Origin: Bacteroidia bacterium
GTDB lineage: Bacteria; Bacteroidota; Bacteroidia; JAIBAJ01
Reading direction: 5' to 3'
Length of the DNA stretch: 38,313 bases
Assembly: GCA_019695265.1 (NCBI GenBank)
Contig: JAIBAJ010000020.1
Coordinates: forward strand, 1 to 38,313
Shown here: one piece after another, positions 20,164-34,343 of the stretch
Numbering within the stretch: position 1 is the stretch's first letter
How the letters are laid out: every line of letters starts with the position of its first letter
Program-made: the position numbers and the translations under genes
Notes under the pieces: model-generated
What the model saw: the letters and a program-made list of their open reading frames with translations, nothing else
Told to the model about the DNA's origin: nothing
The model's database searches: none

Positions 20164-20316
20164 TTCGGGGTTGAGTTCGGTTAGGGATAGAAGTGGATAG
20201 CCCACAGGACCCCGACGGCGATAGCCAAGGGGGACGAGGACTAGGAACGGATAGCCCGACCATGAGCCTTGTAACTTTTAGTAAGAAGGAGGATTCTTAT
20301 GCGAATGGGACCCGCC
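20164..20316 (+). repeat. Dispersed repeat family 1, copy C (type 1)
   Basis: This copy has the conserved core (TTAGGGATAG, ATAGCCCACAGGACC, GGCGATAGCC, GGACGAGGACT, ATAGCCCGACC) and the GCGAATGGGACCCGCC end. The closing stem is CATGAG with CTTATG, one G-U pair replacing the G-C of copy A. It fills most of the gap between the glycosylase gene and porX; the only other visible signal there is TACCTTCG at 20389-20396, a near -7 box. Confidence 0.88.
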
Positions 20317-20425: not shown

Positions 20426-21979
20426 ATGGAAAAAATTAAAATCCTGTGGGCTGATGACGAAATAGATTTATTGAAGCCACATATCCTTTTTTTAAAAGAA
20501 AAAGGTTACGAATTAAAAACAGCTACCAACGGGGACGACGCTCTGGACCTGGTAAAAGACGAACATTTCGACATTGTATTTTTAGATGAAAACATGCCCG
20601 GAATTTCCGGTTTAGAGACCTTGAATCGCATAAAACAAATTGATTCAGGATTGCCGGTAGTAATGATTACAAAAAGCGAAGAAGAAAGCATTATGGAAGA
20701 TGCCATCGGGTCGAAAATTGCAGATTACCTGATTAAACCGGTGAATCCCAACCAAATTTTGCTTACGCTGAAGAAAAACCTGGACAATAAGCGCCTGATT
20801 CGTGAAAAAACCAGCAGCGGATACCAACAGGAATTCAGGCAGATTGGAATGACCATGAGCGACCGGCTTAGCCTGGAAGAATGGACAGAATTGTATAAAA
20901 AACTGGTGTTTTGGGAGCTTGAAATTAACAGCACTAAGGAAGAAGGAATGGCCGAAGTTTTGAATATGCAGAAAACAGAGGCTAACAACCTTTTTGGGAG
21001 ATTTATTGACCGCAATTACATCAATTGGGTTAATGGTAAAGATTCTAATCCGCCGGTGATGAGCCATACCTTGCTCAAAAAGAAATTAATTCCGGTTTTA
21101 GATAAAGAAGAATCGGTATTTATGGTGGTTATAGACAATTTGAGGTATGATCAATGGAAAGTGATACAACCGGTAATAAATGAGCTTTTTAGGACCGAAC
21201 AAGAAGATATTTACTTCTCCATTTTGCCAACGGCTACCCAATATGCCCGAAATGCCTTGTTTGCCGGATTGCTACCCAGTGAAATAGAAAAACGTTTCCC
21301 GAAAATGTGGTTGAATGATGAGGACGAGGGAGGAAAGAATCAATTTGAAGGAGAATTTTTGGCGGATCAATTGAAACGTTTGGGCAGGGATATGAAGCAT
21401 AGTTATACCAAAATCACCAATTATGCTGCCGGAAAAAAATTGGCTGAAAGCGTTTCAAACCTCATGCAAAACAAGCTGAACGTGGTGGTTTACAACTTTG
21501 TAGATATGCTATCGCATGCCCGCACCGATATGGAAGTAATACGTGAATTAGCCGACGATGAAAAAGCCTATCGCAGCATTACCTTAAGTTGGTTTGAAAA
21601 CAGTCCGTTATGGGATATTTTACAACAAGTAGCAGCAAAAAAGGCTACCCTGGTCATTACCACCGACCACGGAACCATCCGCGTAAAAAATCCTTCCAAA
21701 CTGATTGGAGACCGCAATGTAAATACCAATTTGCGCTACAAACAAGGTAAAAACATGCAATGGGAAAAGAACGATGTGTTTGAAGTGAAAAATCCGGGCG
21801 ATGCCTTTTTGCCAAGGGTCAATGTGAGTACTGCCTTTGTTTTTGCCAAGGAAGACTATTTCTTTGCTTACCCCAACAATTACAACCACTATGTAAACCA
21901 TTACCGCAACACCTTTCAGCATGGTGGAATTTCGCTGGAAGAAGTGTTGATTCCATTTGTTGTTTTGAAGAGTAAATAG
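20426..21979 (+). CDS. porX: PorX, type IX secretion response regulator with PglZ phosphatase domain
   Basis: The 517-residue protein joins a receiver domain (1-120) to a PglZ domain of the alkaline phosphatase fold (about 205-515). Receiver residues D10, D11, phospho-acceptor D54, T82 and K104 are all present. In the PglZ part the metal-binding and nucleophile positions are visible: D237 in VVIDNLRYD, T271 in ILPTATQYAR, DMLSHARTD and TTDHGT. This arrangement is specific to PorX, which with the histidine kinase PorY controls T9SS genes; PorX homologues are reported to have zinc-dependent phosphodiesterase activity. tsaE begins at the very next base after its stop, a linkage seen widely in Bacteroidota. 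Confidence 0.97.
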   Translation: MEKIKILWADDEIDLLKPHILFLKEKGYELKTATNGDDALDLVKDEHFDIVFLDENMPGISGLETLNRIKQIDSGLPVVMITKSEEESIMEDAIGSKIADYLIKPVNPNQILLTLKKNLDNKRLIREKTSSGYQQEFRQIGMTMSDRLSLEEWTELYKKLVFWELEINSTKEEGMAEVLNMQKTEANNLFGRFIDRNYINWVNGKDSNPPVMSHTLLKKKLIPVLDKEESVFMVVIDNLRYDQWKVIQPVINELFRTEQEDIYFSILPTATQYARNALFAGLLPSEIEKRFPKMWLNDEDEGGKNQFEGEFLADQLKRLGRDMKHSYTKITNYAAGKKLAESVSNLMQNKLNVVVYNFVDMLSHARTDMEVIRELADDEKAYRSITLSWFENSPLWDILQQVAAKKATLVITTDHGTIRVKNPSKLIGDRNVNTNLRYKQGKNMQWEKNDVFEVKNPGDAFLPRVNVSTAFVFAKEDYFFAYPNNYNHYVNHYRNTFQHGGISLEEVLIPFVVLKSK

Positions 21980-22402
21980 ATGAAATTTCAGATAGAATCA
22001 GAAGATGAATTAAACCGGATAGCCCGCAACATTTTGGATAGTTTTCCGAAGGAGCGGGTCTTCCTGTTTCAAGGAGATATGGGAAGTGGAAAAACCACTT
22101 TAATAAAACGCATTTGCAAGGAATTAGGTGTAACCTCTTCCATGGGTAGCCCAACCTTTGCATTGGTAAATGAATATCTTAGCAAAGACGTTGGTAAAAT
22201 CTACCATTTTGACCTTTACCGCATTAAAAGCAGCAGAGAATTGGCCGAACTTGGATTCTCCGATTATTTAGACAGCGGCAGTTATTGCTTTATTGAATGG
22301 CCTGAATATGGTCAGGAATTCTACGAGGATTTTGTAAACGTATTGATTAGTGCAGAAGGCAACAAACGAGAGTTTAGGATTTCAAAAGGTTTGCACCCAT
22401 GA
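21980..22402 (+). CDS. tsaE: tRNA t6A biosynthesis ATPase TsaE
   Basis: This 140-residue P-loop protein supports TsaB-TsaD in adding threonylcarbamoyl to A37 of ANN-decoding tRNAs. Walker A is GDMGSGKTT (32-40). The family motifs SPTFALVNEY and IYHFDLYRI (Walker B-like) follow, then CFIEWPEY. The length is normal. It abuts porX upstream with no gap, and its stop codon overlaps the start of the racemase gene by four bases (ATGA), so the three genes are translated as a coupled unit. Confidence 0.97.
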   Translation: MKFQIESEDELNRIARNILDSFPKERVFLFQGDMGSGKTTLIKRICKELGVTSSMGSPTFALVNEYLSKDVGKIYHFDLYRIKSSRELAELGFSDYLDSGSYCFIEWPEYGQEFYEDFVNVLISAEGNKREFRISKGLHP

Positions 22403-23877
22403 CAGCCCTAGCTATTGTACTATCATTGCCGCAGCGATTTAGACCCGAAAAGTGGAATGGTAAAACCATGCGGGTTCAATTGGATTTTTCTGAGCCTCAG
22501 GCCTTACAATATTTGGTTACTGTATCGGAAAAGGGATGCAGTTTGGAATCAGGAGTGAGTGACAGCGCCGATTGTGTTGTTCGATGCAGTGGAGAGAACT
22601 ACGCAAAGATGGAAATGGGCGAACTGAATCCACAGTGGGCCTTGATGAGTGGAAAGGTTAAAGTGAGCAATGTAGCGATGATGCTGGAATTTACCAAGCA
22701 ATTCAGACGGATAAAACCAGGAAGTATGCCGGACTCCCCTACTCTTTCCAGGCCCAAGATAAGCGGCCCGTTGGAAGGAATTAAAGTATTGGATTTGAGT
22801 CGGTTACTACCCGGTCCATTGGCTAGTTTATGGTTAGCCGAACTGGGAGCTGAAATAATTAAAATTGAAGACCCGGATTCGCCCGACCCTATTCGGGAGT
22901 TTGTTCCTCTGGTAAAAGGAGTTTCTGTTTTTCATACAGCCTTAAACCGCCATAAAAAAAGTCTTGCCCTTAACCTTAGAACCGATCAGGGAAAGAAAGC
23001 TTTTTTGAAACTGGTAGCAAAGGCCGATATGGTGCTGGAAGGCTTTAGGCCGGGAGTGATGGCGAAAATAGGCCTCGATGCAGAAACCTGTCGAAAAGCC
23101 AATCCAGGTCTGATTTTCGTTTCCATTTCGGGGTATGGACAAACCGGTCCGTTGGCCCACCTGGCAGGACATGATTTAAACTACCTGGCTATGTCGGGAT
23201 TGCTCAGTCTGATTGGAGAAGGACAAATGCCATCGTTTCAAACGGCCGATGTAGCCGGAGGTTCTTACGCTGCTTTGAGTAGTATTTTGGCGGCTCTTCT
23301 TCAAAAGCATCGTCAGGGAAAAGGAGCATTTTTAGACATCAGCATGACCGAGGCTGCCATGCCTTTAGGGTTGCTGGCAAATGAACACCGAAAAGCCTTG
23401 CCGGATGCCACTTTTGAACTTTCAGGGAGCATGCCCAATTACCGTTTGTATTCCACCAAAGATGGCCGTTTTATTGCTTTGGCCGCTTTAGAACCCAAAT
23501 TTTGGGAACTGTTTTGTCGACACGCTGGTAAGGAACATTTACTGAATATGTATTTATTTTCCGAAGAAAAACGCCATGAATCCATCGCTGAACTGGAGCG
23601 TTTCTTCCTGGAAAAAACAATGAAGGAATGGATGGATTGGACGGCCGGACAGGACTTTTGTTTGACCCCGGTTTTGAACCAGATGGAAGTTAGGCAACAT
23701 CCTCATTTTAAGGCAAGGAATAGCTTTAATGAAGCTGGTTATCAACGAAATCCATTTGGGTTTACGGTTCAGGAAAACCAAGGTTGGCCGGCACCGAGTT
23801 TGGGAGAAGACAGTGAAGCAATTCTTATCGAATTTGGGTTTTCGAAGTCAGAAATCAGTTCTCTTTTGACTATTTAA
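22399..23877 (+). CDS. Alpha-methylacyl-CoA racemase-like CoA transferase (family III) with N-terminal SCP2-like domain
   Basis: In the 492-residue protein, residues 125-490 are a CaiB/BaiF family III domain. The AMACR-branch residues are conserved: H258 (LAGHDLNY), D284 (TADVAGGS) and E365 (ALEPKFW), matching the His, Asp and Glu active site of mycobacterial MCR. It probably epimerises 2-methyl-branched acyl-CoA. Residues 1-105 do not belong to that family; their pattern (LQFSE-type start, DCVVRCSGENYAKMEMGE, WALMSGKVKVSN) resembles an SCP2 sterol/lipid-carrier domain, normally a separate protein. The fusion looks genuine: one uninterrupted frame, overlapping tsaE by four bases. Domain identity at the N terminus is an inference from pattern. 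Confidence 0.85.
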   Translation: MTALAIVLSLPQRFRPEKWNGKTMRVQLDFSEPQALQYLVTVSEKGCSLESGVSDSADCVVRCSGENYAKMEMGELNPQWALMSGKVKVSNVAMMLEFTKQFRRIKPGSMPDSPTLSRPKISGPLEGIKVLDLSRLLPGPLASLWLAELGAEIIKIEDPDSPDPIREFVPLVKGVSVFHTALNRHKKSLALNLRTDQGKKAFLKLVAKADMVLEGFRPGVMAKIGLDAETCRKANPGLIFVSISGYGQTGPLAHLAGHDLNYLAMSGLLSLIGEGQMPSFQTADVAGGSYAALSSILAALLQKHRQGKGAFLDISMTEAAMPLGLLANEHRKALPDATFELSGSMPNYRLYSTKDGRFIALAALEPKFWELFCRHAGKEHLLNMYLFSEEKRHESIAELERFFLEKTMKEWMDWTAGQDFCLTPVLNQMEVRQHPHFKARNSFNEAGYQRNPFGFTVQENQGWPAPSLGEDSEAILIEFGFSKSEISSLLTI

Positions 23878-23886
23878 TATTTATTT

Positions 23887-24043
23887 GGCGGGTCCCATTC
23901 GCCTATTGGAAGAAGGTGCTAATTTCGGAGGATAATGCCAAGGCGAATGGTCGGGCTATCCGTTTCAAGTCCTCGCCGCCCGGGCTAAAGCCGCGGCCGT
24001 CTGTGGGCTTTCCACTTCTATCCCTACCCGAGGGTGCAAACCC
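23887..24043 (-). repeat. Dispersed repeat family 1, copy D (type 1)
   Basis: On the minus strand it runs from GGGTTTGCACCCTCGGGTAGGG, through the core (AAGCCCACAGACGGCC, CGAGGACTTGAAACGG, ATAGCCCGACC), to GGCGAATGGGACCCGCC. The stem closing the variable segment is perfect: CCATTCGCCT with AGGCGAATGG, 10 bp. Its 5' tip GGGTTTGCACCC can itself form a small hairpin. Confidence 0.9.
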
Positions 24044-25524: not shown

Positions 25525-25695
25525 TACCAGCAGCGTCACCCAAATCCTCCAACTCGAACAACGCCAACTCTACGGCAGCTCCCGCTTAGGGGTAATACCC
25601 CAAGAAGTGCTAATTGCTGAAAATGCCTCCTGGCCCAATGTAACACCTACCTGCGATACTGCCAATTCACCTTTTGTGCTTTGGAATTCCTTTAA
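25525..25695 (+). pseudogene. Rhs/YD-repeat protein relic 1
   Basis: The frame encodes VTQILQLEQRQLYGSSRLGV and then NASWPNV, the phrase that precedes the conserved core of Rhs-type polymorphic toxin proteins (LYGSSRLG). Nothing of the upstream YD repeats or the downstream core remains. About 150 bases are nearly identical to relic 2 at 26395-26635. Both are preceded, 55-80 bases upstream, by GTTTAAATTAG. It lies between the tRNA terminator and the RelE-type toxin gene. Confidence 0.65.
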
Positions 25696-26394: not shown

Positions 26395-26638
26395 CAAACC
26401 CGATAGCAGCGGCACCCAAATCCTCCAACTCGAACAACGCCAACTCTATGGCAGCTCCCGTTTAGGGGTAATAACCCAAGAAGTGCGAATTGCTGAAAAT
26501 GCCTCCTGGCCCAATGTATTACCTATACACGATACCGCCAATGCACCTTTTGTGCTTTGGAATTCCGATAGCACCTACCAAGACAGTGTGTTCATAAACC
26601 CATTTGATTCGGTGGGGTATAAATTGGAGGGCTAGTCT
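26395..26638 (+). pseudogene. Rhs/YD-repeat protein relic 2
   Basis: The frame encodes GTQILQLEQRQLYGSSRLGV, NASWPNV and FVLWNSDSTYQDSVFINP, then stops. It is the same Rhs fragment as relic 1, with about a dozen substitutions over 150 bases, and extends a little further. The rest of an Rhs gene is missing on both sides. The two relics flank the RelE-type pair as direct repeats, so the pair either inserted into a duplicated remnant or could be lost by recombination between them. Confidence 0.65.
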
Positions 26639-34187: not shown

Positions 34188-34343
34188 GAGGTTGCGCCTC
34201 GGGCAACGATAGAGGCAAGTAGCCCACAGGACCACTACGGCGATAGCCTAGGGGGACGAGGACTACAGCCGATAGCGTGACCCGAACGCCCATGCAGAAA
34301 ATTGAGGGATTAGCTAAAAGATAATTGGGCGGAGGGGGCCCGC
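34188..34343 (+). repeat. Dispersed repeat family 1, copy E (type 2)
   Basis: The copy starts near CCTCGGGCAACGATAG, has the core (GTAGCCCACAGGACC, GGCGATAGCC, GGACGAGGACTACAGCC, GCGTGACCCGAACGCC) and ends GGGGGCCCGC. The variable segment is closed by CGCCCA and TGGGCG. Its nearest relative is copy B1, 26.6 kb away. It fills most of the 333-base gap between the hydrolase and gamma-carbonic anhydrase genes. Confidence 0.9.

Follow-up and report, generated by a model that had tools for sequence, protein, structure and literature searches.

The gene at positions 22399-23877 (plus strand) of the window, by which we mean the whole 38,313-nucleotide stretch of DNA analysed, encodes a two-domain protein in which an SCP2 domain is joined to a CoA-transferase family III domain. 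The frame opens with an ATG and runs for 492 aa, and its product is probably an SCP2-equipped racemase serving the entry step of branched acyl-CoA beta-oxidation. The parts of the gene and its two upstream neighbours, neither of which is considered part of its function, are as follows.

20426..21979, plus strand: porX, response regulator of the type IX secretion system (NF052313, 850 bits against a cut-off of 300)
21980..22402, plus strand: tsaE, sharing 4 nt with the fusion gene
22399..22737, plus strand: N-terminal SCP2 domain, residues 1-113 (Pfam match at 17-90; profile match to mammalian SCP2 structures)
22738..22758, plus strand: linker, residues 114-120, weakly conserved in the alignment of fusion proteins
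22759..23874, plus strand: alpha-methylacyl-CoA racemase-type domain (CoA-transferase family III), residues 121-492 (PF02515; best solved relatives AMACR/MCR)
23170..23172, plus strand: codon of H258, aligned with MCR His126
23248..23250, plus strand: codon of D284, aligned with MCR Asp156
23491..23493, plus strand: codon of E365, aligned with MCR Glu241

Domain composition and catalytic residues

The resemblance of the N-terminal part to an SCP2 lipid carrier, noted in the first-pass annotation, was borne out by profile searches. Pfam SCP2 (PF02036) was matched at residues 17-90 when the whole protein was scanned (E 5.6e-9, 36.7 bits against a gathering cut-off of 21.3), and with a higher score when the N-terminal part was scanned alone (E 4.7e-10, 40.2 bits, cut-off 21.3). 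Mammalian SCP2 structures were matched at E 8e-4 by the single window sequence, and at E 3.9e-11 by a profile built from 14 related domains, over positions 6-102 of 113. The SCP2 domains of SCPx and MFE-2-type proteins were among the best solved matches of this profile, and all 14 of the related domains matched Pfam SCP2 at E <=0.1. AlphaFold run without an alignment was uninformative (pLDDT of 45.4 for window residues 1-119 and 32.8 for the full length), and the SCP2 fold predicted for the N-terminal domain therefore rests on sequence profiles.

The remainder of the protein matched CoA_transf_3 (PF02515) at residues 125-471, over positions 1-365 of the 366 in the profile (E 2.7e-89, 300.3 bits), and this score, too, exceeds the curated cut-off. 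The seven solved sequences at the top of the list are all named racemases, the best of them scoring 193.6 bits as against 163.4 for the best CoA-transferase, and the match to Mycobacterium tuberculosis MCR over the catalytic part reached an E of about 1e-55. H258, D284 and E365 align with His126, Asp156 and Glu241 of MCR, for which a His126/Glu241 dyad and Asp156 are postulated as the key catalytic residues (PMC12246613). The same source postulates that the side chain of the substrate moves over a methionine-rich hydrophobic surface, which makes a neighbouring lipid-binding domain plausible for long chains. MCR (PDB 1x74, 9i2t) thus shares with the fusion the family III match and the aligned His-Glu dyad and Asp (residues as given in PMC12246613), but its chains of 360-365 residues are without an SCP2 domain. 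H258, D284 and E365, together with D259, were identical in all 38 aligned sequences, that is, the window protein and 37 relatives preselected by similarity.

A catalytic domain that is a family III CoA-transferase and not a racemase would belong to the same Pfam family and would likewise match CoA-transferase models, as this one does. Seven NCBIfam models matched the catalytic domain, but none of them at its cut-off, all scores being well below it and the best reaching 166 of 522 bits. With the nearest solved sequences named as racemases and the racemase residues invariant across the set examined, we regard a CoA-transferase as improbable. To our knowledge, CoA-transferases are without a histidine at the position equivalent to H258. 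The placement of the domain in the racemase branch on the strength of H258, D284 and E365, as originally proposed, is accordingly retained: the nearest solved structures are alpha-methylacyl-CoA racemases, and the three residues stand at the claimed positions.

Neighbourhood of the fusion gene

The fusion gene had been described as overlapping tsaE and abutting porX, and as being tied in this way to a secretion regulator. The overlap with tsaE is present (4 nt, ATGA); the abutment is not, as porX abuts tsaE and the fusion starts 419 nt past the porX end. In the window the fusion gene adjoins porX-tsaE and not recognised beta-oxidation genes. A role in type IX secretion together with porX would be in keeping with the contiguity of porX, tsaE and the fusion gene on the same strand, but the comparison of loci makes such a role highly improbable. 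porX was found in 57 of 60 relatives, and tsaE lay downstream of it on the same strand in at least 16 of the 29 porX loci read (window included; 1.5-kb flank; 30 loci fetched), whereas a fusion-type gene followed the porX-tsaE pair in the window alone among these 29. Conversely, no porX or tsaE match was obtained in the retrieved flanks of the seven other fusions described below (roughly 5-9 kb in each direction, except that one flank in G123 measures 139 bases). Because tsaE is common beside porX and none of the seven other fusions has either gene in its fetched flanks, the neighbourhood provides no evidence for a secretion role, and the suggested tie was dropped. An alanine-dehydrogenase-like motif was seen near porX in 13 of the 30 fetched loci and was confirmed by Pfam for one of them.

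Several repeats were observed in this region. A repeat element occurs on both sides of the porX-tsaE-fusion block, at 20177-20271 and, in the opposite orientation, at 23939-24031, with arms of 43 nt (86% complementary) and 31 nt (94% complementary), and a further copy is found at 34199-34265 (82%); Rfam gave no match at gathering score at the flanking copies. A 162-nt direct repeat, 92% identical between 25529-25690 and 26405-26566, lies among small ORFs labelled by eye as toxin-antitoxin-like. Sites in the region that resemble sigma-70 promoters or terminators were no commoner than in shuffled sequences and were dropped.

Distribution and evolution of the fusion

The order SCP2-then-racemase was found in at least eight of 395 class genomes, the window's included, and in five families (G000, which is the window's own genome, G045, G123, G090, G093, G013, G056 and G206). 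To judge from PorX and the genes present, this class is Bacteroidia. The survey threshold was E <=1e-10 and the eight fusions are a lower bound; G350, G263 and G382 were left out, as their matches begin at query residue 85-96 and contain internal stops, and no SCP2 was detected in the retrieved loci of G350 and G263. Seven of the fusions could be aligned over their full length, and both domains were confirmed by Pfam in the three others that were scanned whole (G123, G206 and G045). The G056 fusion was read in pieces only, its frame being broken; in that genome both the SCP2-racemase gene (L037 4797-6262) and a dehydrogenase-SCP2 gene (L103 3547-5174) are frame-broken, through sequencing error or decay. 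That just eight of the 395 genomes, among the matches listed, carry the fusion might be taken to indicate an artefact of assembly or gene calling. However, the frame in the window is uninterrupted, and six further genomes encode colinear proteins with 39-45% identity to the window protein, which in effect refutes the idea; recurrence of the fusion across five families also argues against an assembly artefact, and we attach virtually no probability to this explanation. A phylum sample of 395 genomes gave six matches at E <=1e-60, of which the window's own was the sole full fusion; the seven other fusion genomes are not among these six matches.

In the racemase tree, which took in the racemases with a retrieved locus and left out L002 (a truncated copy of the window gene), all eight fused rows fell into one supported clade (96/94) together with 14 unfused rows. 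The fused rows do not form a single group within it: five changes are required on the tree, and a single group was rejected. No SCP2 match was obtained by tblastn in the DNA retrieved around the 14 unfused racemase genes, and the SCP2 domain is thus dispensable over evolution. The SCP2 domains of the eight fused proteins formed one group in the best SCP2 tree, with weak support (44/54). The simplest reading is a single fusion followed by several clean losses; repeated gain of SCP2 by the racemases is also possible. The fused gene of G045 and the unfused genes of G049 and G003 lie near a like neighbour, presumably a cystathionine-beta-synthase-like gene, and so appear to represent two states of a single locus. 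Of the nine genomes of one genus, two carried the fusion (G090 and G123), six an unfused racemase, and one gave no match at E 1e-60. As to whether close relatives share the fusion, a question raised by the first-pass annotation, the outcome is mixed among the nearest genomes compared, all of the same class as the window genome: the fusion recurs in several of them, and other racemases of its clade are without SCP2.

Outside the class, the one relative found in a contig scan came from a deltaproteobacterial MAG, where an unfused racemase gene has a separate SCP2 gene upstream; this pair was not counted as an operon, a terminator-like hairpin apparently lying between the two genes (by eye). A scan of viral contigs gave no relatives. 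Matches were present in 1217 plasmid records, 19 of which have one place covering >=80% of the query, and in one of these 19, C. necator pBB2, no SCP2 match was found. Neither an SCP2-racemase nor an SCP2-dehydrogenase fusion was met with in the literature searched (titles and abstract starts). Both domain families are known; what is new, within this literature, is their combination in one protein.

SCP2 domains in lipid oxidation and the proposed role of the fusion

The window genome (99.4% complete) holds two SCP2 domains and one CoA_transf_3 gene. Its second SCP2 domain occupies residues 422-510, at the C-terminal end of an acyl-CoA dehydrogenase of 514 aa, every part of which scored above the Pfam cut-off:

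G000:C66:12059-13600 (L001 1486-3030): acyl-CoA dehydrogenase with C-terminal SCP2 domain

The SCP2 domains of this protein and of the fusion belong to one subfamily (34.6% identity); the protein differs from the fusion in that the enzyme is another one, the SCP2 domain is C-terminal and not N-terminal, and the catalytic part groups with bearers of another SCP2 type. By our own count, at a threshold of E <=1e-100 and with some cases at contig ends, dehydrogenases with SCP2 are present in about 35 of the 395 class genomes. These dehydrogenases carry one or the other of two types of SCP2 domain: type A, to which that of the window genome's dehydrogenase belongs, forms one clade with the racemase-fused SCP2 domains (98/97), and type B, which has a classical ending, forms a separate clade (100/99). 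In the tree of catalytic parts, the dehydrogenase of the window genome falls among bearers of type B (100/99; the label was set there by ORF length, not by profile, and L085 is cut at a contig end), yet its SCP2 domain is of type A; the domain therefore seems to have been exchanged. Filters dropped a number of rows, for example L071 from the SCP2 and dehydrogenase trees, and L077 and L085 from the SCP2 tree.

Two cysteines, C47 (22537-22539) and C59 (22573-22575), are invariant in the 14 aligned type A SCP2 domains, and C59 of the window protein aligns with a mammalian SCP2 cysteine. C47 is absent from the SCP2 domain of the G093 dehydrogenase, and both cysteines are absent from L120.

All eight fusion genomes also possess an SCP2-bearing acyl-CoA dehydrogenase (in two pieces in G056), and most genomes with such a dehydrogenase are without the fused racemase. 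A Fisher test of this co-occurrence gave p 1.3e-9 (34 genomes) or 1.7e-9 (35 genomes), values that ignore shared ancestry and some contig-end cases and serve as a rough guide. In G206 the two genes stand close together on one strand, in the order fusion, TetR-like gene (23.8 bits, slightly below the cut-off of 24), dehydrogenase-SCP2 (type B by its ending).

Separate SCP2 genes keep similar company. In family f80, of another class, an SCP2 gene lies directly behind the AMACR gene in five of the six genomes with an SCP2 match, the exception being G513; in G432 the genes upstream of the pair code for a TetR protein, an AMP-binding enzyme and an SDR, and one further gene intervenes. These are the same two partners as in the fusion, adjacent and in G432 and G396 overlapping by 4 nt, but they are two proteins, with the SCP2 gene downstream and of another subfamily. 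In the phylum of G730, 179 of 235 genomes gave an SCP2 match, and in 13 of the 30 loci read an SDR start appeared by eye to be in frame with SCP2. One such protein, L147 (G906), is an SDR with two SCP2 stretches and with MFE-2 hydratase and MaoC domains (Pfam), and L155 1-1821 (G795:C11) has its SCP2 domain C-terminal to an AMP-binding enzyme of the acyl-CoA ligase type. Both resemble the fusion in that SCP2 is attached to an enzyme acting in the oxidation or activation of fatty acyl-CoA, and differ from it in the partner, which is the MFE-2-like SDR in L147 and the AMP-binding enzyme in L155. L158 (G790) is similar to L155, judging by its start, and three SCP2 matches (L115, L116, L118) were observed within one 1002-aa open frame at G730:C88:2334-3374. 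The f80 pairs, the G206 row and the MFE-2-like and ligase fusions indicate that SCP2 accompanies CoA-linked lipid metabolism in several lineages.

The same association is known from mammals, where SCPx and MFE-2 (HSD17B4), like the fusion described here, combine SCP2 in one protein with an enzyme of the branched acyl-CoA beta-oxidation route. In MFE-2 the SCP2 domain is C-terminal and sits on a later step of the spiral. In SCP2-thiolase, too, SCP2 is C-terminal and on a later step (PMC3406046), whereas the fusion has it at the N-terminus of the racemase. As a caution, the same source describes a protein from mycobacteria that bears the annotation SCP2-thiolase but whose C-terminal domain turned out to have a quite different fold; in sequence, however, that domain is unrelated to SCP2.

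We infer substrate, lipid binding, stereochemistry and direction of flow as follows. The SCP2 domain would bind acyl-CoA esters, long or branched, by their acyl part, and the racemase part, to judge from its conserved residues, would interconvert the 2R and 2S epimers via H258/E365 and D284. The window genome's acyl-CoA dehydrogenase, with its C-terminal SCP2 of the same subfamily, would then take over the 2S product, so that two successive early steps of beta-oxidation would be SCP2-equipped. The first-pass annotation had argued that a direct fusion of the two domains makes biochemical sense, and this argument gains strength from the SCP2-bearing acyl-CoA dehydrogenase that the window genome also encodes; the G206 tandem, the f80 AMACR-SCP2 pairs and the SCP2 domains of the acyl-CoA ligase and the MFE-2-like enzyme point in the same direction. 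Matches to methylmalonyl-CoA mutase at four places in the window genome would fit propionyl-CoA disposal, but this enzyme is common in Bacteroidota.

Another possible explanation is that SCP2 is a structural or localising module, involved in stability, oligomer contacts or membrane attachment and carrying no substrate, and that the racemase works like its unfused relatives. The unfused racemases nested among the fused ones are presumably functional without SCP2, and the window SCP2 sits on a long branch in the SCP2 tree, both of which favour this explanation. Against it, the same SCP2 subfamily is found at the opposite terminus of a different enzyme (C-terminal on the dehydrogenase, N-terminal on the racemase), and in f80 a separate SCP2 gene accompanies AMACR. 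Its presence on two enzymes and as a separate gene points to a function of the domain in the pathway and not in the folding of one enzyme, and we consider a purely structural role unlikely. The SCP2-equipped racemase for the entry step is the reading we prefer.

A wider interpretation, offered tentatively and with more doubt than confidence, is that in some bacteria of this class successive enzymes of branched or isoprenoid acyl-CoA oxidation, the racemase and then the dehydrogenase, share a dedicated SCP2 subfamily as their common handle, which holds or passes on the poorly soluble chain, and that SCP2 is a general carrier tag of lipid oxidation that has been repeatedly attached, lost and exchanged; its fusion to ligase and MFE-2-like enzymes in other bacteria speaks for such a general tag. 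If true, this arrangement would be a counterpart to SCPx and MFE-2 of peroxisomes, located instead where the spiral begins. A single clade, and even a single genus, contains both fused and unfused racemases, and such natural pairs offer a direct way to measure what SCP2 contributes. The proposed function would, if correct, also hint, on genomic grounds, at the degradation of 2-methyl-branched or isoprenoid lipids by these bacteria.
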